Source of the DNA: Alkalicoccobacillus plakortidis
GTDB lineage: Bacteria; Bacillota; Bacilli; Bacillales; Bacillaceae_D
NCBI RefSeq assembly: GCF_023703085.1
Contig: NZ_JAMQJY010000001.1
Location: forward strand, 2,480,001 to 2,544,000
Length of the DNA: 64,000 nt
Reading direction: 5' to 3'
Made by a program: the position numbers and the translations under genes. Below the pieces are notes generated by a model. That model was not told where the DNA came from. It did no database searches and was given only the letters and a program-made list of their open reading frames with translations. This document shows, in pieces, positions 3,807 to 54,749 of this stretch (positions are counted from its first letter, which is position 1; each line of letters begins with the position of its first letter).

Positions 3807-5484
3807 TCACCCCTTATATGGAATTCGCAAAGAAATGACGGTTCCTTCTCCTAATGTTGTCTCTATATCAAGCCCATATTCAGTGCCATACAAAAGCTGA
3901 ATTAGCTGGTGAGTATTCTTCATTCCGGTATGTTCGGTTTCCTTCAGGTCTCCTGCTAGAATCAACTGCACCAATGCTTGAGTCTCAGGCGACATACCCA
4001 AGCCCGTTATCTTTAACTTGAATCAGCATAAGTGTTTCATCAAGTACCTCTATTGTCAGTTCGACTAGCAAATAATGTGTTTCATTTATATTATGCTTTA
4101 TCGCATTCTCGATTAAAGGTTGAATCATCAGTTTTGGTATATGCGCCTCGTATACGTAGGGCTCTATTTGAATGGAGTAGTTCAGTCTTTTTCCATACCT
4201 CATCTTCTGAAGGGAAAAGTAATCTTCAAGATAACTCAAATCCTTCTTCAACGGTACTGTTGTATCTCCAAAATTTGCATTATAACGCATTAGCTTTGCT
4301 GTTTTGACAATCATATCCGAAGCATTTTCAGGATCAGCCAATGTTTCATACTTAATCATTTCGAGCACATTAAAAAGAAAATGCGGATTAAACTTTGCTT
4401 CAAGATGCTTCATCTCACTTAATCGTCTTTTCTCCATAATTTCTTGATTCTGATCAACCAGAAATTGAATTTCATTTATTTTACTCGTGTATTCTTCATA
4501 TATAGTCTGTACTTCATCAAAAATATGTTCCTTTTGAAAGTGTTGATTATGATTTTTAGTAGAAATCATCGTAACGAGCGCATCAAAAGGCTGCAGTGAC
4601 TTTTTTAATATTTTTGGTGTGACAATCCATACTACAAGGATCATCACCAAGCTGCTTACAACCATTGTTAGAAGCCCATAGAATAATAGCAAACGATATG
4701 AATTAATCGACGTTAGTGTAATAACTTGAATGTCATTTTCAGAGATGGTTGTACGTGTTTTATAAAAATAATCAGTATCAGATTGTATAAAGTGCCCTTT
4801 TTCAAGCTCTAACTTACCAAGAGTCGTTAAAGCAAAGGAATGACTATAAAAGATGACGTTATCAAATGGATCCGTCACAAATAATAGCTGATTATTGGTT
4901 GATGGAAGTTGATTCTCAAGAAAAAACATTAGATACCCAATCGTACCATCACTACCCGGTATCGCTGCTGTAAATACATAGGACGCGTCATGGTTCACAT
5001 CCATAATTCGCTTGTTTAATCGCTCTTCAATCATGCCGTTTTTATTTGCTTTGTTAACCAACTCATTCATAAAAATACTTTGACTCAGCTCCTGCTCGAT
5101 TCCATCATAATAACTAGTAGCTACGATCTCTTCCTCTTCATTTAGCAGAACAAAGTCAGCGTTCATCTGCTGTTCATTCCTAAAATCATAGAGGATACGG
5201 TTTGTTTCATTCCCCCCACTAGCTCCAGATAAAAATGACGTGATGGTTTCGTCTTTAATTAATGAAGACAAGCCAGCCCTATATTCTTCAAATCCTGCTT
5301 CAATCTCAGCAGCAACCTGCTCATTTATTTTTTGATTTGGCTTTACGATAGATACATTAAAAATCAGATATAAAGAAATCAAATACACAAAGAGAATAAT
5401 AGCTATAATGACAACTGCGTATTTTATAAAAGAGCGTTTGATATCATCTTTGATTTTTCTGCGTTCCATATATGCCAACTCCAC
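3807..5484 (-). CDS. YesM-type sensor histidine kinase (frameshifted near C-terminus)
   Basis: This membrane kinase has one transmembrane helix at about residues 21-43, an extracellular Cache-like sensor region, a second helix near 268-295, and then a His_kinase domain. That domain carries the phosphoacceptor segment EAKFNPHFLFNVLEM and the N-box PLIENAIKHN. The frame breaks in the ATP-binding G-box. Reading CCAAGC at 3998-4003 as CCAGC gives DNGLGMSPETQALV and a 558-residue protein ending at 3807. It lies behind the permease gene and directly before its response regulator. A weak hairpin at 5502-5527 may lower its expression relative to the transporter. Confidence 0.85.
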
Positions 5485-42729: not shown

Positions 42730-44739
42730 CTATTTGTCTTCTAATTCAAACTGTAACGCCAAATCCTGTAATTCCTCCGCTACTTGAGAAAGACTGCTGA
42801 CTGCAGCGGAAATCTCTTGCATGGATGCAAGCTGTTCTTCTGTTGAGGCAGTTACGTTTTCTGAGTTTGCTGCCGTTAGTTCTGCAATCGTTGAGATCTC
42901 TTGGAATGTTTGAATAAACTGATTGGTACCTGAGTCTAATTGTTTAGTTTCTTCATAGACATCTTTTATTTCTTCAGACACCCCATCAATGAATTGCTTA
43001 ACCACACCAAATGTATCGCCAGCATTATTAACGACCTCAATACCTTTTTGAACCTGCTCTGTACTTTCTTGCATTTTCACAGTAGTTTGGTTCGTTTCTT
43101 TCTGGATGGATTCAAGGATCTTCTTAATAACCTTTGCCGATTCTGCAGATTGTTCTGCCAGACGACGAACCTGCTCGGCCACAACCGCAAACCCTTTTCC
43201 TTGCTCACCTGCCCGAGCGGCTTCAATAGCTGCATTTAAAGCTAATAGATTGGTTTGTTCCGCTATACCAGTAATTTCATCTATCACTTTATTAACCTCA
43301 GTAGCTCTATGTCCAAGACCCGTTACACTAGTTGAGAGCTCTTCAACCGTTTGTTTTACCTGCTGCATTTGCTGAATACTACTTGAGATTGCTGTATGCC
43401 CATCCTCCACAGCATGAGTGGCTTGAATTGTATTTGTCAGTACTGTTTGTGATCGTTTCGTAACCGATGAGACACTCTCTGTCATCTTTTTCGTAGCCAG
43501 GCTTCCTCTTTGAATAAGGTCCCTTTGTCTGTCTACTTTTTGAGCCATCTCTTGTACATCTTCAGATATTTGCTCCGTTGCTTTTGTATTTTCCTCCGCA
43601 CTTGCAGAGAGCTCTTCTGATGAAGAAGCAACATACTGAGATTTATCCTGCACATGTGAAATCATCGTGGATAACGATTGCCTCATCGTCTCAAACGCGC
43701 GACTTAAACGATTGATCTCATTTTTTTGATTGGACGACGCATCAAACGTCACACTTAGGTCTCCCTCACTCATTCGTTCAGCTGACGTTGTTAGCTTTTC
43801 AAGTGGTTTCGTGATCGAACGTAATAACATGATGACGATGATCATTCCAATCAGAATAGAAGCTACGGTAACAATTGCTGACGTGACGAGAATAGGATGT
43901 GTCGCTTCCCCAACCTCTTTATCTAAAGAAACAGCAACAATCTTCCAGCCTGTCTCTGCATTTGTCACATAGTTTAGCGTTGTAGCCTCACCTTTGTACG
44001 TATATCCAAGCCTGCCTTTTTCACTCTCTTGAAAAGTAAGGAATTCACCACTCGCTTCTTCTCCGATTGTTTCAGTAGGGTGAGAGATATAGTGGTTCTC
44101 TGCATCAAGTAAAAAGACAAATCCCTCATTCCCAATCGTAATCGTAGAAAGCATATCTGTAATCGCATTTAACGTAATATCAATACCCGCCACTCCCAGT
44201 CCATCCTCTGTCGTCTTTGCAATTGTTGTTACGACAGAATCAGTAGAAGCTGATACATAAGGTGGCGTAATGACAATCTGTCCACTTTGTTCTTTTGCTA
44301 ATTGATACCAAGGACGTACCCGAGGGTCATAATCTGGATCTGCCGGAGGATCAACTGGTGACTGCATAAAATGACCTTGCTCAGTCCCCACAAATGTTAG
44401 TTCTACGTTTGATCTAGAATCCTGAAAATCATCTAATAGCACTCTCTGACCTGATGCATCTTCCTCTAAAAAGGTAGACACATCACTCGTATCAGCTAAA
44501 TAGTCGATGTTCTCTTTCTGAGTCATTATAAAATTAGTAATTGTATGATCAATAATGGCCAGACTCTCTTCGGCAGCACCTTCAAGCTGCTGATCCACAT
44601 TTTGACTAGCACTATAAAAAGAAATAATAGCAATCATAAGGCTAGGTCCTATCAAAATGAGTAAAAAGGAAAGAATGAGCTTAGTTTTTAAAGAAGTCTC
44701 CAGAAATGAAAAGATGTTACGACGTCTGATGTTGTTCAT
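42730..44739 (-). CDS. Methyl-accepting chemotaxis protein with dCache sensor
   Basis: This 669-residue transmembrane chemoreceptor has TM1 at about 19-41, an extracellular dCache domain with [20 protein letters not shown] and [18 protein letters not shown]2 at about 285-310, and HAMP at about 310-365. A long coiled-coil signalling domain follows. The hairpin tip that contacts CheA/CheW is [20 protein letters not shown] followed by [18 protein letters not shown]. The RPWY motif is typical of amino-acid-binding dCache sensors. It is monocistronic. Confidence 0.92.
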
Positions 44740-44974
44740 GTGGTGTTTTCCCCTATTCTTAATTTGTCAAATCATTCTGTCTACTTTAGTCAAACAAAGT
44801 ATTATAATTATCTATCGGATAGCTCACACCCTTTGTGAATGGTGTGTGAGCCGATCATATATAAAAATTTTGTGGCGGCGCTTTCTTTTAACTTTATAGG
44901 GTTCAATTAACAAAAAGTGGTTTTATTAAGAGCCCTTAAGGTAATAGAACATTAAAAAAGTAGGAGTGATGATC
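44740..44974. other. Intergenic region, nothing assigned
   Basis: This AT-rich spacer must hold the chemoreceptor promoter on the minus strand and the promoter of the small ORF at 44975. I see no ORF with an RBS and no strong inverted repeat. Confidence 0.35.
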
Positions 44975-45094
44975 ATGCACTCTCCTGAAAATCAAGAAAT
45001 AAAAGACGCAAATAAGCCTTCCTATAAGAAACTGCTTGCGGCACTTTTTTTAGGAAAGCTTGTGGCGTATGTTCTTATTTATTATGTGTTTTAG
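44975..45094 (+). CDS. 39-residue single-span membrane protein
   Basis: ATG 44975 has AGGAG eight bases upstream. The frame reads a polar, charged N-terminus (MHSPENQEIKDANKPSYKK) and then one hydrophobic helix, LLAALFLGKLVAYVLIYYVF, to the TAG at 45094. The RBS quality and the clear charge/hydrophobic division support a real small protein. I do not recognise a family. It lies between the chemoreceptor and the racemase-like gene. Confidence 0.6.
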   Translation: MHSPENQEIKDANKPSYKKLLAALFLGKLVAYVLIYYVF

Positions 45095-45182
45095 ATATTT
45101 GGCTAGCTTAGAACCATTCTCCGGAGCTATATAGTAAAATTAAAAGTAAGGATTGAAATGAACTAGAACAGGAGATGAGTTT

Positions 45183-45842
45183 TTGAAAAAGCGATTGGGT
45201 TTTCTTCATGCGCACCATACGAACATCGAACACATAGAAACATGTTTCTCTCCATACGAAGTTGAGTTAGTTCATTTTGTTGATCCTGGTTTATTACTTC
45301 AAAAGGACATTAATAAGGTGCTTTCTCAAAATAGAGTAAAAGATCAATTAGAGTGGATTGCTACATGTGAAGTGGATGCCATTGTTGTTACTTGTACAGA
45401 ATACATAACCATGATAGATGAGAGCATATTCATGATAGAAGTACCTATCATAAAAATCGATGAACCTTTTTTTGACCACATTTGTTGTTCTGAACAACCT
45501 CAATTGATGCTATTTACAAATCCGAATACGATTAATGGAACCATAAAACGTCTTAATGATTACGCATATTACCACCACAAACAAGTAAATTGCAAACCAC
45601 TTATTATTGAAGAATCATTTGACTTACTATTACAAGGTCGCGGAGAGGAATACGAACAAAAGATACTAGAATTCTTACTAAATCATACAAACAAACACGT
45701 ATCAGTTGGTCAGTTATCAATGGTAGGTGCTGCAAAGGAATATGAGAAACAAACGTCCCAGAAAGTTGATAATCCATTGGATGCATTGCTATCCTTCATC
45801 ATTAATCAATTAGACATACCCCAAAAAATCAAACAGCACTGA
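45183..45842 (+). CDS. Asp/Glu racemase-like protein
   Basis: This 219-residue protein starts at TTG 45183 with AGGAGATG upstream. The N-terminus KKRLGFLHAHHTNIEHIE, the central VDAIVVTCTEYITMID with a Cys in the position of a racemase catalytic Cys, and a later VSVGQLSMVGAA suggest the Asp/Glu/hydantoin racemase fold. The second catalytic Cys of true racemases is not evident. The biochemical role is therefore unresolved. Confidence 0.55.
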   Translation: MKKRLGFLHAHHTNIEHIETCFSPYEVELVHFVDPGLLLQKDINKVLSQNRVKDQLEWIATCEVDAIVVTCTEYITMIDESIFMIEVPIIKIDEPFFDHICCSEQPQLMLFTNPNTINGTIKRLNDYAYYHHKQVNCKPLIIEESFDLLLQGRGEEYEQKILEFLLNHTNKHVSVGQLSMVGAAKEYEKQTSQKVDNPLDALLSFIINQLDIPQKIKQH

Positions 45843-45859
45843 TCTCATGTATAACGGGA

Positions 45860-46741
45860 CTAGCCTCCCTTCTTCAATTCCTCCACCAGTTCCTGAAAAT
45901 GACGAAATGGTGCCCCCATCCAAAGATTGCGGTGGTAGACAAAATAAATTTGCCGTTCGAGCTCTTTGTTTTCGAACTCGATATAGGCAAGATGGTCTTC
46001 ATTTTCGATTAGTTTCTTGGAGATTAAGGCTACTGCCTTGCCGTAGGATAGCATTTTGATAATCGTTGAGACTGAATCTAGTTGGATCATCTCCATTTGT
46101 AGCTTCTGCTCTCTTAGCCATGATTCTGAGAAGTGACCGGTTGAGCTTGAGAGTCTGTGCACAAGTAAGATCTGCTCTTTGAGGTCTACCTTTTCAAAAG
46201 AAGGTGCACTTGCAAATGGGTGCGACCGGCTAAAGGCTAATACGATTTTGTCACTCGTGATGGGTTCATACATCAGCTCTTCTTCTTTCTTCCCTGTTTC
46301 CATCAATAGACCACAATCAAGCTCCTGTAAAAGGAGTCTTCTTTCTATTTCCGGGGCGGTTTGCACATCTAGTGAGACTTTGATCCTTGGGTATCGTTCA
46401 GCCAGCTGATGAATCAACTCTGGCATAAACAACTGAGCTGGCACTCCACTTGCTCCTAAATTGATCGATCCGTTCTCCCCGTTCTTATAATCTTCGACGC
46501 TTTTAACTAGTGCTTGGTTCACTTGACTGAGCTGCTTCGCATAATGATGAAGCATTTCCCCTACATCTGTCAGCCTGTATCCTCCTGCATTTGTCCGAAA
46601 AAGTTTCACTCCATAGTCTTCTTCAAGCGACTTAATGTGAAAGGAAACCGTTGGTGTAGATAATCCCAAGAGCTTTGCGGTTTGGGTCATTTTTCTTGTT
46701 TCTACTAATGAGAGAAAGACCTGTAATTTTTGCAGATTCAC
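45860..46741 (-). CDS. LysR-family transcriptional regulator
   Basis: This 293-residue protein has an N-terminal winged HTH (residues 1-60, MTQTAKLLGLSTPTVSFHIK, with the wing YGVKLFRTNAGGYRLTD). A C-terminal periplasmic-binding-like effector domain spans about 90-290. It is divergent from the ABC/beta-CASP/CYTH operon at 46890. Two T-N11-A palindromes lie between, as is usual for LysR control of the divergent operon. Confidence 0.88.
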   Translation of the reverse strand: MNLQKLQVFLSLVETRKMTQTAKLLGLSTPTVSFHIKSLEEDYGVKLFRTNAGGYRLTDVGEMLHHYAKQLSQVNQALVKSVEDYKNGENGSINLGASGVPAQLFMPELIHQLAERYPRIKVSLDVQTAPEIERRLLLQELDCGLLMETGKKEEELMYEPITSDKIVLAFSRSHPFASAPSFEKVDLKEQILLVHRLSSSTGHFSESWLREQKLQMEMIQLDSVSTIIKMLSYGKAVALISKKLIENEDHLAYIEFENKELERQIYFVYHRNLWMGAPFRHFQELVEELKKGG

Positions 46742-46760
46742 TTTATCCTCCTACAGTAGT

Positions 46761-46775
46761 TTAGATAATTTCTAA
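46761..46775. promoter_or_regulatory. LysR-box palindrome TTAGA-N5-TCTAA
   Basis: This perfect 15-bp T-N11-A palindrome lies 20 bp before the LysR start, a typical autoregulatory site. Confidence 0.6.
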
Positions 46776-46813
46776 CGATAGGTAGATCTTATCAGATTCT
46801 TTTTAATGAATTG

Positions 46814-46828
46814 TTAACAGTTCGTTAA
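46814..46828. promoter_or_regulatory. LysR-box palindrome TTAAC-N5-GTTAA
   Basis: This second perfect 15-bp T-N11-A palindrome lies 62 bp before the ABC ATPase start. It is a likely activation site for the operon. Confidence 0.55.
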
Positions 46829-46889
46829 TCCTTTCTAAATACTTCATCACTACACTTAGAGACGAAGAGAAAAATGAGGAGAGGGTAAC

Positions 46890-47858
46890 ATGATCATTCG
46901 CTTAGAGGGCATTGAGAAGACATTTGGCCAGGTACAAGCTGTGAAACCAATCAATCTCACCATAAAAGACACCTTTGTTACGATACTCGGTCAATCTGGT
47001 TGTGGGAAAACAACGTTACTAAAAATGCTAGTTGGGCTTTCTGAACCATCAGCTGGGGACATCTTTTTCGATGACCGGACGATCTTCTCAAAGGAAAAGA
47101 AGATTAATGTGAAGCCAAACAAACGCCAGATTGCGATGGTGTTTCAGGATTTTGGATTATGGCCACACATGAGTGTCTTAGAGAATATTGCCTTTGGCCT
47201 TCGCGGAAAAGTATCGAGGAGGGAACGAGTTGATCTAGCTCGTGAGGCCTTGTCAAAAGTGAAACTCGAAGCAAAAGCGAACGTGTTGCCCGGCGATTTG
47301 TCTGGTGGTCAACAACAACGTGTTGCGTTGGCACGAGCAATTGCTGTTAATCCCAAACTCATTCTTTTCGATGAAGCACTTAGTGCTCTGGATGCCGTCC
47401 TGAGAGATCAAATGCGCGAGGAGATCCTGACGATCGTTCAATCAATTGGCGCACAAGGCATTTTTGTTACACACGATCAAACCGAAGCAATGGCCATGTC
47501 AGATAGCATGATTGTCATGGATACGGGAGAGGTTGTTCAAACAGGCTCACCTGAAGACATCTATCACACTCCCGCCAACTCCTTTGTGGCAAATTTCATT
47601 GGCAAAACGAATTGGCTAGAGGATCAGAACAGTATGGTTCGTCCAGAGAATGTCTTTCTGCAGCCTCGTAAACACACGATCCTACGATCTGGTGTGGTCG
47701 CAAAGAGTATGTATGAAGGTGATCGCTACGTTATTTTTGTTAACACGCATGAACAGCTATGGAAATTCTATGACAATAAGCCTCATCAAGAGGGATCTAC
47801 AATCAAGCTTTATATTGATGAACATCACATACATTCACTAATGAAACGGGAGGCATAA
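46890..47858 (+). CDS. Iron/phosphonate-type ABC transporter ATP-binding protein
   Basis: This 322-residue ATPase has Walker A GQSGCGKTTL (about 34-43), Q-loop MVFQDFGLWPHMS, signature LSGGQQQR, Walker B LILFDEALSALD and the switch His in VTHDQTEAM. The Walker B aspartate is followed by Glu-Ala rather than the usual Glu-Pro. A short TOBE domain (ENVFLQPRKHTIL) ends the protein. It is the first gene of a five-gene operon and the binding-protein gene starts 2 bp later. Confidence 0.9.
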   Translation: MIIRLEGIEKTFGQVQAVKPINLTIKDTFVTILGQSGCGKTTLLKMLVGLSEPSAGDIFFDDRTIFSKEKKINVKPNKRQIAMVFQDFGLWPHMSVLENIAFGLRGKVSRRERVDLAREALSKVKLEAKANVLPGDLSGGQQQRVALARAIAVNPKLILFDEALSALDAVLRDQMREEILTIVQSIGAQGIFVTHDQTEAMAMSDSMIVMDTGEVVQTGSPEDIYHTPANSFVANFIGKTNWLEDQNSMVRPENVFLQPRKHTILRSGVVAKSMYEGDRYVIFVNTHEQLWKFYDNKPHQEGSTIKLYIDEHHIHSLMKREA

Positions 47859-47860
47859 TC

Positions 47861-48901
47861 ATGAAAAAAATGAATCTATTAACCATCGCAGGTGTTTCTG
47901 CATCCGTACTACTACTAGGAGCTTGTGGAGCTGATGCTGGTGCGACTGACACCACAACAAGTACGAAAACCGAAGCAGCCTCATCTGAAACAGCTACAAC
48001 ACCAGAGACCTTAACTGTATACTCTGCGGGACCAGAAGGATTAGCTGAGAATATTCAAGCAGCATTTGAAGAAGAGACAGGCATTAAGGTTGAAATGTTC
48101 CAAAGCACCACAGGAAAAATCCTCTCTCGCCTAGAAGCAGAATCCAATAATCCAATTGCTGATGTTGTTGTGCTTGCATCGATCCCGTCCATGGAAGGCT
48201 TAAAATCAGAAGAGAAATTACAACCCTATGAGCCGGAAAATGCCGATAGCATGAACCCTGAATGGAGTGATTCCGATCATTATTACTACGGGTATAGTGC
48301 CTCTGCTCTTGGTGTTGCCTATAACACCAATCAAGTAGATTCTCTAGATGCTGATTGGAATGAGTTTGGCGAATCCGAATGGCAAGGCCGTGTAACCATG
48401 CCTGATCCTACTTCCTCTGGATCAGCGGTCGACTTTCTTTATGGACTAACTGATGCTGATGAGAAAGGCTGGGACATCATCCAAGGCTGGATGGACAACG
48501 ACTTACTAATTGCTGGAGCAAACAAGGAGTCACTCGACGCTGTCATCACTGGAGATAAAGACGTTGTAGTCGCTGCCGTTGATTACATGACCTACAAAGC
48601 GAAAGAAAGTGGCGAACCTGTTGATATTTATTATCCAGAGAGTGGTACAGTGATTAGCCCACGTGCAGCAGGTATTGTAGCTGACTCTAGTAATATCGAT
48701 GCTGCTAAAGCGTACATGGATTTTCTATTATCTGATACAGCTCAAGAGCTTGTTGCTGATGCATACATCCTTCCTGGTAACGAGGAGATTGAATTAAGTA
48801 ACCGTGCAGTACTAGCCGATATCCCAACTCTTCCATTTGAATTTGACGGGATTGAAGACAAGCAAATCGAAACGTTAAACACCTTCTTATCAATGGACTA
48901 A
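47861..48901 (+). CDS. Extracellular solute-binding lipoprotein (FbpA/AfuA/PhnS-like)
   Basis: This 346-residue lipoprotein has a signal LTIAGVSASVLLLGACG with Cys about 22, then a Thr/Ser/Ala-rich linker. The binding domain contains TVYSAGPEGLAENIQAAFEE, GIKVEMFQSTTGKILSRLEAE, DVVVLASIPSME, and SPRAAGIVADSSNIDAAKAYMDF. The STTGK-ISRLEAE block is shared with importers of phosphorylated sugars and phosphonates as well as iron. The bound ligand is unknown. Confidence 0.88.
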   Translation: MKKMNLLTIAGVSASVLLLGACGADAGATDTTTSTKTEAASSETATTPETLTVYSAGPEGLAENIQAAFEEETGIKVEMFQSTTGKILSRLEAESNNPIADVVVLASIPSMEGLKSEEKLQPYEPENADSMNPEWSDSDHYYYGYSASALGVAYNTNQVDSLDADWNEFGESEWQGRVTMPDPTSSGSAVDFLYGLTDADEKGWDIIQGWMDNDLLIAGANKESLDAVITGDKDVVVAAVDYMTYKAKESGEPVDIYYPESGTVISPRAAGIVADSSNIDAAKAYMDFLLSDTAQELVADAYILPGNEEIELSNRAVLADIPTLPFEFDGIEDKQIETLNTFLSMD

Positions 48902-48931
48902 TGCGTTAAGAAACTTATTGGAGGAATACAT

Positions 48932-50587
48932 GTGATCTTACGTAGACATGCCCCATTTACAGTGCTATTCCTAATACTGTGTCTCCTAGCAGTAGCACCA
49001 CTAATTTCAGTCCTCATCTACACCTTTGTGGATGAGGGCTCCCTATCATTTGAATCCATGCGTTATGTTCTAACAACAAATAGCATCATTCAAACGATGC
49101 AGAACTCCTTACTACTTGGTGTCTATGTGATTGCGGCTACAACATGTATTGCCCTGCCACTCGCCATCTTCCGAACAAAAACTGCTCTAGTTAAAAGCAA
49201 TTGGTTGGACATTGTTTTTGTGATCCCGTTTATGACCCCGCCCTATATCGGTTCCATGGGATGGATCTTATTTATGCAGAACAATGGCTATTATGAGCAA
49301 CTCTTTGGAGGTAAGGCTCCCTTCACCTTCTTTAATGTCGCCGGCATGGTGGTTGTGATGAGTATGCATCTCTATCCTTTTTTGTATCTGATGCTGAAAA
49401 ATGCGCTTATGCGAATCAATGGATCTTTTCTGGATGCGACCTTAATCTACGGGGGCAATCCCGTCTTCAACTGGATTCGGGTTGTATTACCATTACTCAT
49501 CTCAAGCTATGTCATGGCAAGTCTGCTCGTATTTATTAAGACATTAGGTGAATTCGGTACACCTGCCACATTTGGAAAACGAATTGGCTATGACGTGTTA
49601 ACGACTGACATTCATGCGTATCTCTCACGCTGGCCGATCAATATCTCTGCAGCCACGAGCTTATCCTTGGTTTTACTTAGTATTTGTATGGTGATCTGGT
49701 ATCTGCAAAATATCATTAGTCGAAAATATTCGTATGGCATACATTCCGGTAAGTCTGGAACCACAATGAAACCAAAAGATTCACTATGGATTCGAGTGCT
49801 TTCCAGTGGCTATGTGTTCATCATTCTCGGCCTGTCTATTGGTGTCCCGTACTTCTCGATTATTGTGACGTCTCTACTCAAAATACGAGGAGACGGGTTA
49901 AATCTCAGTAACCTAACATTCAGTCACTACGCCGACCCATTTACGATTGGCTCGGCTAGCTTCACCGCACTGATGAACAGCATTAACTTTGCCTTCATCG
50001 CTTCAACGATTGCTGCCGTGATCGGTTTTAGTGCCGCACTCTTTATACGCGCAGGGCAAAAGAAGTCACAGCAACTCGTTGATTTCACAAGTATTCTCTC
50101 TAATATCATTCCGGGTATCGTTTTTGTTGTCGGTCTAATCCTATTTTGGAATACACCGTGGTTTCCATCCACGATTTATAACACAACCTGGATGCCAATT
50201 GTGACGTACATTGTCCTGTTCCTGCCGTACTCTGTGCAGTATACAAAGTCTGCCTTATCACAGCTTCATTCGTCCATTCATCAATCAAATGCTGTCTTTG
50301 CCCAGAACGAATGGCTGATTCTTATCAAAGTTTGGTTGCCCCTTTTAGGACAGGGCATCCTAGCTGGTTGGGTGATGACATTTATTATTTCCATGCGTGA
50401 ACTTGTTGGTTCCTTGCTTATTCTTCCGCCGTCCGTTGAAACAAGTGCAACATTCATTTATAGCCAGTTCGAACAAGGAGATGTCGCCAAAGGTATGGCC
50501 ATGGCCGTTGTGACGGTGCTCCTAACCATCCTTTGTATCTTCATCATTGAATCCTTACAGCGAAGGGCCTTACGAACAAAAATATGA
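48932..50587 (+). CDS. Iron/phosphonate-type ABC permease, two fused domains
   Basis: This 551-residue protein has about twelve helices with two permease domains. EAA-like loops are LDATLIYGGNPVFNWIRVVLP (near 165) and a degenerate QSNAVFAQNEWLILIKVWLP (near 450). The start is GTG behind TTGGAGGAA. Its stop overlaps the next start by 4 bp (ATGA). It is similar in layout to the permease at 5537-7201, but clearly a diverged paralogue. Confidence 0.87.
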   Translation: MILRRHAPFTVLFLILCLLAVAPLISVLIYTFVDEGSLSFESMRYVLTTNSIIQTMQNSLLLGVYVIAATTCIALPLAIFRTKTALVKSNWLDIVFVIPFMTPPYIGSMGWILFMQNNGYYEQLFGGKAPFTFFNVAGMVVVMSMHLYPFLYLMLKNALMRINGSFLDATLIYGGNPVFNWIRVVLPLLISSYVMASLLVFIKTLGEFGTPATFGKRIGYDVLTTDIHAYLSRWPINISAATSLSLVLLSICMVIWYLQNIISRKYSYGIHSGKSGTTMKPKDSLWIRVLSSGYVFIILGLSIGVPYFSIIVTSLLKIRGDGLNLSNLTFSHYADPFTIGSASFTALMNSINFAFIASTIAAVIGFSAALFIRAGQKKSQQLVDFTSILSNIIPGIVFVVGLILFWNTPWFPSTIYNTTWMPIVTYIVLFLPYSVQYTKSALSQLHSSIHQSNAVFAQNEWLILIKVWLPLLGQGILAGWVMTFIISMRELVGSLLILPPSVETSATFIYSQFEQGDVAKGMAMAVVTVLLTILCIFIIESLQRRALRTKI

Positions 50588-51669
50588 TGGATGTAACAAT
50601 CCTCGGAGGCGTAAAAGAATACGGTAGAAATTGCTTTATCCTAACCGACCACACAACCAACACACGCATTATGCTCGACTGCGGCGTACGTAACGGAACA
50701 CCTGAAGTCTATCCAGACATCACAGAAGACATCGCCCAATCAATACAAGCCGTCTTTATCTCTCATACACATAACGATCACATCGGAGCCCTGCCCTTGC
50801 TCGCGGAAAAAGGCTTTAAAGGAGACGTCTGGATGTCCGAAGCAAGCCTCGAGCAACTAGCCATAATCTTGCCAATATGGCGTCAGAAAAGACCAGACGC
50901 TCCAATTGATAACCTGCAATTTCGTGCACTTGCCACGCAAACACGCGGCAAGCAGGTGATTATCACCAAAAACCTAAGCATCACCTGGGGCTATAGCGGA
51001 CATATGCTAGGCAGCGTTTGGTACATCTTTTTTGTGAATCAGCAAGCCACCTTCTTCTCAGGAGATCTGGCACTGACCTCTCCCCTTTTGGTCACGGACA
51101 CACCTTTAATACGTTCCTTTGACCTGGCGTTGATTGATAGCGGCCATGCTGCTTACACCATGCCGTACAAAAAAAGTACCAAAAACATCATAGCTCTACT
51201 CGCTGACCCATTAGAAAAATATCTCATTCCAATTACGATCTCTGGAAAAGCGTGTGATCTCTTATTCTCTCTTTATCAGCTACTTCCTGATCGCACTTTT
51301 TTTATCGATCGACCGTTACACGGCCATCTGCACAGCTACCTGCAGCATCACGAAAACTTACGTAATGAGCGAATTTGTGAACTAGAAGCTATGCTGAGCA
51401 GTGATCGCCTGCAGATAGCTAAAAACAAGAAGCAACCAGGTGTTTATCTATTAAAAGGAAAAGCATCCGACTGTACAGTTATTCAAACAGGGATCTATAA
51501 AAATGAACACTCTCCCTTTTACAAATCTCACCCGGATCGCGAAGATCTCCAAACACTCGTCCGACAAATCAATGCTAGAAACACGATTTTCTTCCACAGC
51601 AAAGAACGAGATTTAGAACTAATTCTAAAAAACCAAACATTGGAGGACGTATCACATGAAAAAAACTAG
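50584..51669 (+). CDS. MBL-fold, beta-CASP-like hydrolase
   Basis: This 361-residue cytoplasmic protein has the zinc motif SHTHNDHIGALPLL, then YSGHMLGSVW (the AGHxLGS block of RNase J/CPSF-type beta-CASP enzymes), FSGDLALTSPLL, and a late His in FFHSKERDLELIL. Residues between about 190 and 320 correspond to the beta-CASP insertion. Known relatives act on RNA or DNA; others cleave phosphodiesters. It is translationally coupled to the permease by a 4-bp overlap and to the CYTH gene by 14 bp. This context suggests it processes an imported phosphoester rather than bulk RNA. Confidence 0.75.
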   Translation: MMDVTILGGVKEYGRNCFILTDHTTNTRIMLDCGVRNGTPEVYPDITEDIAQSIQAVFISHTHNDHIGALPLLAEKGFKGDVWMSEASLEQLAIILPIWRQKRPDAPIDNLQFRALATQTRGKQVIITKNLSITWGYSGHMLGSVWYIFFVNQQATFFSGDLALTSPLLVTDTPLIRSFDLALIDSGHAAYTMPYKKSTKNIIALLADPLEKYLIPITISGKACDLLFSLYQLLPDRTFFIDRPLHGHLHSYLQHHENLRNERICELEAMLSSDRLQIAKNKKQPGVYLLKGKASDCTVIQTGIYKNEHSPFYKSHPDREDLQTLVRQINARNTIFFHSKERDLELILKNQTLEDVSHEKN

Positions 51670-52450
51670 TATTGTAGCCGCCTTAACATTTGCTTTTCTT
51701 ACAAGTACAGCCCATCCCGCCCAAGCAGAAAGCCCAATTGATCCAGGCTATGAAGTGAAATTCAACCTCGATCTAGATGCCTTCGCGAATCAAGCTGACA
51801 TCATAAATGCATTTAATGCCACGCACGATGAAGACGTAAAGGTCTATTACTTTGATACACCTGATCAAACCTTCCGTGATCAAGGATATATTCACCGTCT
51901 GCGTGTGTATGCAAGTGATAAGAAAACAAATATCACCTATAAAAAGGTCTTCCCTGGCGTATCCGTACAAGACGCCATTGCAGAAGCAACAGCCAAAGGC
52001 TTTCACAACGACATGTCCAACTACAAATTCGAAAACGACCGCAAAGAAGGCACCGATACCTTCTCCATCAGCCGTAAAGAAACATTTAAACAGAACAAAA
52101 AACTAACTTTTGATGGCATTGATGTCGACTACGCGATCAACCTTTTCAAAGATGAAGCTCCTAAGAAATATAGTAACTGGGACAATGAAGACTGGTACCA
52201 AGAAACCCTGAGTCAAACGATTCCATATGGTCCTGCCCTAGCGAAAACATATGAAGGCCAGTACTTAGGCATCGATGCAGATGTAGAAATCTGGACCTAT
52301 AAAGGGGATACAATTGCCGAGATCTCAACGAAGGTTAGTGACAAGGAACTAGCTGATTCGATTGAAGAAACCTGGTTGAACGGATTAATAGAAGCTGAGT
52401 GGTTGAGTGAGGAGCAGACTTCGAAGACGGGGTTTGTGATGGATAAGTAA
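51656..52450 (+). CDS. Exported CYTH-like domain protein
   Basis: This 264-residue protein has a cleavable signal (MKKTSIVAALTFAFLTSTAHPAQA). The mature part resembles a CYTH / triphosphate-tunnel domain: YEVKFNLDLDAF (E-x-K strand), VYYFDTPDQTFRDQGYIHRLRVY, KKTNITYKKVFP, VDYAINLF, and DADVEIWTY. CYTH enzymes act on triphosphates, polyphosphate or thiamine triphosphate. An exported copy is unusual. It ends the five-gene operon and is followed by a strong terminator. Confidence 0.7.
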   Translation: MKKTSIVAALTFAFLTSTAHPAQAESPIDPGYEVKFNLDLDAFANQADIINAFNATHDEDVKVYYFDTPDQTFRDQGYIHRLRVYASDKKTNITYKKVFPGVSVQDAIAEATAKGFHNDMSNYKFENDRKEGTDTFSISRKETFKQNKKLTFDGIDVDYAINLFKDEAPKKYSNWDNEDWYQETLSQTIPYGPALAKTYEGQYLGIDADVEIWTYKGDTIAEISTKVSDKELADSIEETWLNGLIEAEWLSEEQTSKTGFVMDK

Positions 52451-52458
52451 ACGGAAGA

Positions 52459-52488
52459 AGAAGGTGTCTCATATAATTAGACACCTTC
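52459..52488 (+). terminator. Terminator of the ABC/beta-CASP/CYTH operon
   Basis: AAGGTGTCT/AGACACCTT stem 10 bp behind the CYTH stop. Confidence 0.8.
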
Positions 52489-52489
52489 T

Positions 52490-52720
52490 ACAGGGTTAAA
52501 GACAAGGTCAGAGCTGATACTTCCAAAAACGATTGAGCTCGCTATAAGAGGCAGTAAGGACAAGGAATATCTCTTTTTACTAAACTACAGCAGAGATGTG
52601 CAAACCATTACTCTGAATGAACCATTGAACGAGCTTTTATCTGATGTAACTCTCCAAAGTACGGGTACGGTCGGGCCTTATGGCGTTATGATACTTACAA
52701 AGGTCAAAGCTGAGAAATGA
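52490..52720 (+). pseudogene. C-terminal remnant of a GH42 beta-galactosidase
   Basis: One frame reads RSELILPKTIELAIRGSKDK, EYLFLLNYSRDVQTITL, NEPLNELLSDVTLQSTG and TVGPYGVMIL to the TGA at 52720. This is the C-terminal beta-sandwich end of GH42 beta-galactosidases (YLFLLN and PYGV blocks). No start or catalytic domain precedes it, since the CYTH terminator lies immediately upstream. The rest was lost by deletion, next to an intact alpha-galactoside cluster. Confidence 0.65.
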
Positions 52721-52758
52721 TGTATTCTATGCTCAAGTATTAAGAAAAAGAGTATATA

Positions 52759-52802
52759 AATAAGCCAGGTAAAATCATATGATTTTTACCTGGCTTATTT
52801 TA
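52759..52802 (+). terminator. Terminator of the former GH42 gene
   Basis: AATAAGCCAGGTAAAA/TTTTACCTGGCTTATT perfect stem, 38 bp behind the remnant stop. Confidence 0.85.
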
Positions 52803-52912
52803 ATATGCTTCGCTTGATGATGTGCAGATAAAATAATAACAAGCATTAAACCATATTCTCAACGTCTTAAGACATATCTTAAGTGCGAGATTATAAGATA
52901 AAATACCACTAA

Positions 52913-52926
52913 TGAAAGCGCATACA
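52913..52926. promoter_or_regulatory. cre-like box upstream of the alpha-galactoside operon
   Basis: TGAAAGCGCATACA matches 13 of 14 positions of the CcpA consensus, 31 bp before the first permease start. Confidence 0.6.
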
Positions 52927-52957
52927 ATTTAGCTGATTTTATAAGGAGGCGTGGATA

Positions 52958-53855
52958 TTGGGTGGTAGAAAGAAAAGGAGAAATAATCAAACATTGATAT
53001 TTTATTTGTTTATTTCGCCTTGGTTGTTTGGATTCTTAGTTCTAGCGGTTGGGCCTATGATTTATTCTTTATACATGTCATTTACTGATTGGCAGATTTT
53101 TGGTGGGGCTGAATGGATAGGTTTAGAAAACTATAAGAATTTATTCTTTGATGATCCGCTATTCTGGAAAACGCTTTGGAATACTTTTTATTTTACTTTT
53201 TTTGGAGTACCACTAAGTTTAGTATTTGGATACTTACTAGCTGTCTTATTAAATCAAAAAGTTAAATTTATGGGAGTGTTTCGGACGATTTTTTATCTGC
53301 CTTCTATTGTTCCAGCTGTAGCAAGCTCTTTATTATGGCTTCTCATTTTCCAAGCCGGAATTTGGTTTAGCAAATGCAGTACTTGATTTTTTTAGTTTAC
53401 CTACTTCTAATTGGATACTTAGTGAATCAATGGTTAAACCAACCTTAATTATCATGGGGTTATGGGGTGTAGGTGGAGGAATGGTTATTTATTTAGCCGG
53501 TCTACAAGGAGTACCACCAAGCCTATATGAAGCTGCTGATATCGATGGAGCTGGTAAGTTCAGAAAGTTTTGGAATGTAACCGTTCCAATGACCTCACAC
53601 GTTATATTCTTTAATCTAATTATGGGGATTATTGGGTCATTCCAAGTTTTCACTCAAGCATATGTAATGAGTAATGGTGGACCAAACTACGCCTCATTAT
53701 TTTATGTTCTCTATCTCTATCAGAATGCATTCCAATTCTTTAAGATGGGTTATGCTTCTGCATTAGCGTGGATATTATTCTTAATCATACTTGTATTTAC
53801 ACTTTTACAATTTAAATTCTTTGGTAAGAAGGTCTACTATGAGTACGATGATTAA
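52958..53855 (+). CDS. ABC sugar permease, MsmF/MalF-like (frameshifted)
   Basis: TTG 52958 follows AAGGAGG. The 298-residue reconstructed protein has six helices starting [20 protein letters not shown]. The EAA loop is [21 protein letters not shown]. The frame breaks at 53350-53355. Reading CCAAGC as CCAGC gives [20 protein letters not shown]. It is the first gene of an alpha-galactoside uptake operon and pairs with the permease at 53873. Confidence 0.88.
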
Positions 53856-53872
53856 TAGAGGGGGTGAGTAGA

Positions 53873-54749
53873 GTGGAGAAAGCGGTTTTGAGTACTAATA
53901 TCAAACCACATAAAAGTTACAAGAAGAGTAGAACGATTGACAGAATAATGATCTACGCGCTTTTAATTGGTTTTTCAATCTTATTTATACTACCGTTCAT
54001 CTGGTTAATTAGTACCTCCTTAAAAACAGAGTCTCAGGCGATAACATACCCACCTTCCATTTTGCCTTCTCCATTCGATTGGGGCAATTACAAGGAGGTT
54101 TTCGAACTTGTCCCGTTTTTAAGGTTTTACATGAATACAATTATCGTTACTGGATTCACAGTCCTTGGAACAATCGTTTCAAGTTCGATTGTAGGTTATG
54201 CTTTTGCAAGGATTAAGGGCAGAGGGCGAAACTTTTGGTTTGTTATTTTGCTAAGCACTATGATGCTTCCACCTCAAGTGACAATGATTCCCGTTTACCT
54301 TATCTTCTCTAATTTAGGTTGGGTAAATACCTTTTTACCTTTAATCGTCCCTGCATTCTTTGGAAACGCCTTCTTTATATTCTTATTAAGACAGTTCTTT
54401 AAAGCCATTCCAAAGGAACTGGAAGAATCCGCAATCATTGATGGCTGCTCGACATTTGGAGTGTTTTGGCGAATTGTCGTTCCGCTATCTAAGCCCGCTT
54501 TAATAACTGTTGGGATTCTATCATTTATGGGGAGCTTGGAATGATTTTCTTACTCCTTTAATCTATCTAAATGATACAAGCAAATATACTCTTGCCTTAG
54601 GTATTCAACTATTTAATGGCCAACTAAACATGCAATGGGGTCCTATGATGGCTGCTAGTACGATGGTAATATTGCCGCTTGTTCTTATCTTTTTCTTTGC
54701 ACAAAAGCATTTTATTGAAGGAATTGCTTTATCAGGTATAAAAGGATAA
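53873..54749 (+). CDS. ABC sugar permease, MsmG/MalG-like (frameshifted)
   Basis: GTG 53873 (MEKAVLSTNI) follows GAGGGGG; a GTG at 53864 is also possible. The protein has six helices and an EAA loop LEESAIIDGCSTFGVFWRIVVP. The frame breaks at 54534-54539. Reading GCTTGG as GCTGG gives SFMGSWNDFLTPLIYLND, a standard MalG segment, and 291 residues. Removing a G from the preceding GGGG would give MGAWNDF instead. It is followed by the binding protein. Confidence 0.87.

Follow-up and report, generated by a model that had tools for sequence, protein, structure and literature searches.

We analyzed a 64,000-nucleotide stretch of the Alkalicoccobacillus plakortidis genome (contig NZ_JAMQJY010000001.1, positions 2,480,001 to 2,544,000; the window herein), in which the genes for an ATP-binding cassette (ABC) importer are followed by those for a metallo-β-lactamase (MBL) protein and an exported CYTH protein. 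These five genes had been noticed from the sequence alone, and we found all of them where they had been placed, together with the 4-bp overlap of the permease and MBL frames and the 14-bp overlap of the MBL and CYTH frames. A divergent gene for a LysR-family regulator and a repeat array in the intervening region complete the locus (Table 1). As argued below, this cassette probably belongs to the Pho regulon and would serve to scavenge a phosphorylated organic compound.

Table 1. Genes and promoter features of the cassette, in window coordinates
Feature	Position	Strand	Basis
LysR-family regulator, divergent	45860..46741	-	Pfam LysR_substrate and HTH_1
PhoP-box-like array, four TTAAYA-like hexamers with 11-bp period	46803..46841	+	Alignments A8 and A9; genome pattern search
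Putative -10-like hexamer TACACT, 3' of the array	46851..46856	+	Reading of sequence and alignment (inference)
ABC importer ATPase	46890..47858	+	ABC_tran (112 bits), TOBE_2
Substrate-binding lipoprotein (SBP), AfuA/P5PA-type phosphate clamp	47861..48901	+	SBP_bac_6; profile against solved structures
Fused double permease, PhnU2-like, 551 aa	48932..50587	+	BPD_transp_1, two stretches
β-CASP MBL hydrolase, 361 aa, no signal peptide seen	50584..51669	+	Lactamase_B_2
Exported CYTH/tunnel-fold protein, incomplete catalytic metal site	51656..52450	+	CYTH PF01928

The six-gene arrangement is conserved in Bacilli

A search with the CYTH alignment found 26 named loci, and in 24 of them the five operon genes and the divergent LysR gene kept their order and orientation. 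The cassette loci come from Alkalicoccobacillus, Gracilibacillus, Ornithinibacillus, Shouchella, Oceanobacillus, Terribacillus, Lysinibacillus, and Viridibacillus. One of the 24 (L040) has a shortened MBL frame, and the two exceptions consist of a CYTH gene without the other genes (L033) and of gene fragments (L050). The LysR gene lies divergent at the same place in the 24 loci and also in most of the further regions that we mapped. The CYTH proteins of the window and of the A. murimartini locus (L025) share 94% identity, and among 40 relatives, the source genome included, CYTH was found in four, namely the source genome and three of the four other genomes of its genus (84-94% identity). Gene maps of several regions rest on open reading frame (ORF) calls, in which antisense frames can mask genes (SurE and TIM-barrel genes in L162 and L163); the single region behind L096 and L134 was excluded because overlapping antisense frames had been picked as genes. 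L050 and L133 are probably one locus, as are L027 and L097. At L133 (genome G251) and L050, only fragments of CYTH and LysR survive, which looks like loss of the cassette as a unit.

We also examined a class-wide sample of 398 genomes (own genome included, many from one genus; the class is taken to be Bacilli from the named relatives) at thresholds of E ≤ 1e-25 for the MBL protein, >500 bits for SBP orthologs, and E ≤ 1e-10 for CYTH. SBP orthologs and MBL matches occurred in the identical 36 genomes, and in all 36 the MBL gene lies 1671-1877 bp downstream of the SBP gene on the same strand, a gap that fits the permease gene. CYTH was present in 31 genomes, 25 of which also carry the MBL gene, and in each of these 25 it lies 2.3-3.4 kb from the SBP gene. 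Fisher tests of class-wide co-occurrence gave 4.8e-52 and 1.3e-25, values that ignore kinship among the genomes. The SBP profile (A7) was built on loci picked for CYTH or MBL; its scores set the 36 orthologs (>500 bits) apart from three proteins at 380-418 bits and from 50 rows below 231 bits, 24 of which we viewed (20 regions and three more, one of them with two rows). We conclude that the gene set is conserved in relatives, on which the original prediction had staked its proposal of a single system, and that the six-gene arrangement is not due to chance.

The binding protein shares a phosphate clamp with AfuA and P5PA

PhnS2, PhnT2, and PhnU2 of a putative 2-aminoethylphosphonate importer (TIGR03261, TIGR03265, and TIGR03262) were the best or second-best models for the three importer parts, all of which scored below the curated cut-offs: 115.8 bits for the SBP (cut-off 392.75), 281.9 for the ATPase (457.7), and 145.8 for the permease (593.25). 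The PhnT2/PotA-like ATPase stayed under the cut-off of every one of the 25 NCBIfam models listed. When a profile of 21 SBPs was compared with solved structures, P5PA ranked first (E 9e-35) and AfuA third, with many iron-binding proteins lower. Reports on AfuA and P5PA describe the residues of a phosphate clamp, in AfuA Ser37, Gly38, Thr60, Ser148, Gly149, and Thr150 (PMC4546632, PMC8427247). With an offset of two between AfuA chain and paper numbering, counted from the profile alignment, T84, G85, S107, S186, G187, and S188 of the window SBP align with the clamp as described there. The first five positions are invariant in all 21 SBPs, and the sixth is Ser in 19 and Thr in two. The sugar determinants of AfuA, His205, Asp206, and Glu229, are not kept; they correspond to position 244 (Ala, Thr, or Val), a gap, and position 266 (Ser, Thr, or Asn), and the family instead has invariant D241, Y242, M243, and Y245. 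Because the clamp is kept and the sugar-reading residues are not, the ligand likely has a phosphate end and a remainder that would be unlike that of AfuA's ligand.

A β-CASP protein is replaced by a calcineurin-like phosphoesterase in related cassettes

The HxHxDH and GHxLGS motifs first seen in the MBL protein are present as H61xH63xDH66 and GH140MLGS. In an alignment of 40 rows, the residues of MBL motifs 1-4 (D32, H61, H63, D65, H66, H140, and D161) are invariant, as are D185, H316, and H338, which we take to be β-CASP motifs A, B, and C, respectively. The β-CASP fold spans the whole chain. Together, motifs and fold bear out the original description of the protein as β-CASP-like; it is a member of the β-CASP family. 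Beyond the LysR gene, two genomes carry another β-CASP gene (6692-8119 of L085 and 7728-9086 of L094), with an upstream array score of 20 (scoring described below), and the L085 copy has intact motif residues in the alignment.

The three genomes with SBPs at 380-418 bits (G335, G325, and G246) have no MBL match, and in all three a Metallophos (PF00149) gene follows the permease gene. The encoded phosphoesterases score 59-71 bits against PF00149 and are closest to ApaH, at 89.8, 81.1, and 59.8 bits against a cut-off of 176; the one in L126 resembles solved diadenosine tetraphosphatases. Within the fetched regions, CYTH and LysR genes both adjoin the importer only in G246, the LysR gene does so in G325, and neither does in G335. 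For a distant importer clade, with SBPs ∼30% identical, a BLAST search with L135 and L136 proteins found SurE adjacent to the importer in 11 of 20 regions, joined by PHP and TIM-barrel genes in nine; SurE is also present in two of three further importer regions. That related importers stand beside phosphohydrolases of at least three unrelated folds argues that the cargo is a phospho-compound hydrolyzed in the cytosol, and we regard this as the strongest argument.

The sister importer clade itself (L135, L136, L164-L169, L171-L173, L175, and L181) carries SurE, in most cases lined up with PHP and sugar-isomerase-like TIM-barrel genes, and is possibly another unnamed organophosphate uptake cassette.

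The same enzymes bring up a nucleotide-specific reading, with a nucleotide, dinucleotide, or dinucleoside polyphosphate as cargo. The CYTH protein would act on the triphosphate outside the cell, the importer would take in the mononucleotide or dinucleotide, and the β-CASP or ApaH-like enzyme would then split it. β-CASP nucleases, diadenosine tetraphosphatase relatives, and CYTH tripolyphosphatases are all enzymes of nucleotides, nucleic acids, or triphosphates elsewhere, and SurE, the neighbor of the sister importers, is a nucleotidase. However, we identified no nucleobase-recognition feature in the SBP and no nucleoside-catabolism gene among the six genes scanned, and the three ApaH-like proteins fall far under the ApaH cut-off, so we consider a nucleotide cargo unlikely.

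A candidate PhoP-box array precedes the operon

PhoP boxes in a Bacillus promoter are tandem TT(T/A/C)ACA hexamers (PMC6327384), and Pho boxes are 11-nt direct repeats, with teichuronic acid genes under Pho control (PMC4415409). The region between the LysR and ATPase genes is conserved, and the window array within it consists of the hexamers TTAATG, TTAACA, TTAATC, and TAAATA. Scored as TT(A/T/C)A(C/T)A repeats with an 11-bp period, the array reached 21 of 24, which none of 300 shuffles equaled. The -10-like hexamer downstream of it reads TATACT in Shouchella and TATAGT in Lysinibacillus. Scores of at least 20 were found for 26 of 34 distinct family promoters as against 7 of 222 control promoters. 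When the period was varied from 6 to 17 across 21 lineages, the mean score was 20.3 for period 11 and 16.7-17.7 for the remaining values; period 11 ranked strictly first in 14 lineages and first or joint first in 19. No more than 4 of 300 shuffles equaled the score in 15 of the lineages.

In the genome of the window, a three-repeat pattern has four exact matches, which include the window array and a site upstream of a tua-like operon. Array scores were 23 for pstS, 22 for a phosphonate operon, and 21 for the tua-like operon, the last equal to that of the window operon. The pstS gene was typed above its cut-off, as were PhnC and PhnE of the phosphonate operon; the sugar dehydrogenase of the tua-like operon has TuaD as its best model, at 601.9 bits under a cut-off of 700, and passed the general cut-off. 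We regard the window array as a candidate site to which PhoP may bind. A multi-repeat TTTAC array also lies between a PhoR/PnpS-like kinase gene and polA (L212, around 4458-4495).

The CYTH protein looks like an optional external accessory

The CYTH protein matches PF01928 at 24.6 bits (cut-off 23.2) over residues 32-97 and has, by inspection, a Sec-type signal peptide and no lipobox. A sequence search against solved structures gave nothing useful, and the structure prediction that had been proposed as a check on the CYTH assignment returned the tunnel (CYTH) fold. ExExK is the N-terminal hallmark of catalytic CYTH/TTM triphosphatases (PMC8233210). The first Glu of the hallmark, as given there, is Gly, Ala, Ser, or Thr in all 42 sequences aligned, and E33 and K35 are invariant. 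At the C-terminal ExE, E222 is invariant and the second position, the Glu for metal 2, is S224 in all 42. We inferred the register of this second motif from strand order and spacing because the CYTH-YjbK profile alignment is confident only over residues 33-100; the spacing to the preceding acidic residue is 11 in 12 of 12 YjbK-like proteins and, among the 42, is 11 in 23 and 17 in 19. The RxR, Lys, and site-1 Glu positions are retained. Since two metal-site residues are replaced in all 42 sequences, binding appears as likely a function as cutting.

The gene is also optional, with no match in 11 of the 36 MBL genomes. It is the last operon gene in the 24 named loci and in L089; elsewhere it lies across the LysR gene (L084 and L095), downstream of the MBL gene (L085 and L094), downstream on the opposite strand (L088), or beyond the LysR gene (L093). 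That the gene has moved repeatedly and yet stayed close to this importer speaks for a functional link between them. Among the six genomes with CYTH and without MBL, G246 has the gene beside the related importer, three (G112, G148, and G180) have it in regions without an importer, G251 keeps fragments close to a fragment of LysR, and the G343 match contains stops. With two metal-site residues replaced in every member and its gene optional, the protein does not support the early proposal that it trims the compound outside the cell. It looks like an external accessory that the cassette can do without, and its active site, judged from these residues, would be built more for binding than for cutting. 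In three genomes of one genus (L130-L132), the exported CYTH protein is encoded in a region without an importer, beside a gene for a 211-aa secreted-looking protein, which has a Cu_amine_oxidN1 match in L131.

Proposed pathway and alternatives

We propose that under phosphate limitation PhoP~P would activate the operon via the 11-bp array, with the LysR protein perhaps adding substrate control. The lipoprotein would catch a compound exposing a phosphate (phosphomonoester-like) end, the importer would bring it inside, and the β-CASP enzyme would split its phosphoester bond in the cytosol, a step that an ApaH-like calcineurin phosphoesterase would perform in some relatives. The exported CYTH protein may assist as an accessory by binding, and perhaps also processing, a polyphosphorylated form close to the cell surface. 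Linkage, clamp, enzyme replacement, and promoter are jointly explained by a Pho-type organophosphate importer with a dedicated cytosolic phosphohydrolase. The general idea of the original prediction, import of a phosphorylated compound and its hydrolysis inside, is supported by the clamp, the Pho-like array, and the enzyme replacement.

Several observations weigh against this pathway. Characterized β-CASP enzymes are known for acting on nucleic acids. In six of the 21 lineages, 14-62 of 300 shuffles equaled the array score, and Paenibacillus-type promoters (L084, L085, L093, and L094) score 18-19. The other two exact matches to the three-repeat pattern lie before polA and beside prkA, with no evident Pho link, and with up to one mismatch the genome has 54 matches compared with 52 for the reversed control, which is no enrichment. 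CYTH genes apart from the operon score 16-18, and all 11 tested are without a Pho-like array, which counts against direct co-regulation there. Lastly, the response regulator gene adjoining that of the PhoR-like kinase has a promoter score of only 18, and the best model for that regulator is YycF/WalR (282 bits, cut-off 340); because it is not clearly PhoP, we lowered our confidence in the pathway very slightly.

That regulator, with no strong array of its own, also favors the alternative that a different OmpR-family member, for instance WalR, recognizes the 11-bp array, which would place the operon outside the Pho regulon and still allow import of a phospho-compound. WalR sites have the same helical spacing as the array, with a hexamer of the form TGTAA. 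The array hexamers are instead TTAAC/TTAAT, and in the same genome arrays of this type also precede pstS, the phosphonate operon, and the tua-like operon, which makes this alternative improbable. Import of a phosphonate or 2-aminoethylphosphonate, with a PhnP-like MBL protein, would account for the matches to PhnT2, PhnS2, and PhnU2 and is compatible with Pho-like control. Yet the importer scores lie far under each cut-off, no C-P lyase or phosphonatase gene was found among the surrounding genes scanned, the genome has a separate PhnCDE-type operon (L220, the phosphonate operon typed above), and the MBL protein is a β-CASP; we therefore give this explanation little credence. It is highly improbable that the cargo is iron or some other inorganic anion and that the MBL protein is an RNase placed there for regulation: FbpA-type iron-binding proteins are numerous among the structural relatives of the SBP, but the family profile ranks P5PA first and AfuA third, and a calcineurin phosphoesterase in the MBL slot does not suit an RNase role.

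Three further candidates were rejected. A class IV cyclase making cyclic AMP with the MBL protein as phosphodiesterase does not fit the invariant R81 (42 of 42) or the weak PDEase_II match (E 0.087); this central Arg stands where class IV adenylyl cyclases have a small residue, and on inspection the window CYTH protein has no HF motif of the kind that precedes ExExK in those enzymes. For thiamine triphosphate, the window protein is without W-x-R-x-R, and thiamine-type SBP matches score 45.9 and 18.5 bits, under cut-offs of 93.4 and 317.15. As for anti-phage defence, padloc gave no more than generic ATPase matches for the ATPase (best mad3, 94.8 bits), weak matches of the MBL protein to LmuA (20.8 bits) and of the L126 phosphoesterase to PDC-S10 (19.2 bits), and none for the CYTH protein, the SBP, or the L083 MBL protein.

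Flanking sequence

An Rfam scan of 44000-54000 gave three matches, all under the gathering score, and no riboswitch. Behind the LysR gene, a 219-aa ORF (45183-45842) has no Pfam match above cut-off and no NCBIfam match, and it is missing from the same place in the A. murimartini locus. In the adjacent sugar-type ABC operon (52958-54544), the permease genes lie in short frames (52958-53386, 53430-53855, and 53864-54544), which suggests decay or assembly errors.

Significance and relation to known systems

We found no paper describing this gene set in a literature search that had most subscription journals outside its scope. If the proposed organophosphate cassette is real, it would provide a physiological role for an unassigned CYTH branch and for a β-CASP branch linked to an importer instead of to RNA metabolism. 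It also hints at a source of organic phosphorus, nowhere found named, that Bacilli could use when phosphate is scarce. The use of a β-CASP enzyme is the most surprising part of the cassette, and because a calcineurin phosphoesterase takes its slot in some relatives, the chemistry is open to a direct test. Only tentatively do we raise the further possibility of an unnamed Bacilli pathway in which a protein of the β-CASP fold, known from RNA and DNA processing, has been co-opted to hydrolyze a small-molecule phosphoester, namely one imported cargo, and an exported CYTH protein with a dismantled catalytic metal site catches polyphosphorylated compounds at the surface and feeds them to the importer.

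The window MBL protein has the whole fold and motifs 1-4 and A-C in common with β-CASP nucleases (CPSF73, Integrator 11, aCPSF1, TTHA0252, RNase J, and Cas14) and differs from them in its trimmed β-CASP domain, its motif B (YKSHPD) and motif C (FFHS), and its importer as operon partner. With CYTH/TTM triphosphatases (AtTTM3, ygiF, and the YjbK group), the CYTH protein shares the tunnel fold and the retained positions named above; unlike them it is exported and has both Glu replacements, the C-terminal one in the inferred register. The PhnS2/T2/U2 importer has a similar fused double permease, and the cassette is set apart from it by its low scores and by the absence of a phosphonate catabolic gene among those scanned. 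The AfuABC (hexose-6-phosphate) and P5PAB (pyridoxal phosphate) importers carry phosphorylated organic cargo with SBPs of the same fold family and clamp; the sugar-reading residues of AfuA are absent here, and the available text on those systems mentions no hydrolase or CYTH partner. Ugp is a Pho-controlled organophosphate ABC importer, and UgpQ cleaves a phosphodiester inside the cell. The cassette has another SBP class and a β-CASP enzyme where Ugp has a glycerophosphodiesterase. By analogy, the cassette would work like AfuABC or Ugp-type systems, although it fell outside the importer families tested.

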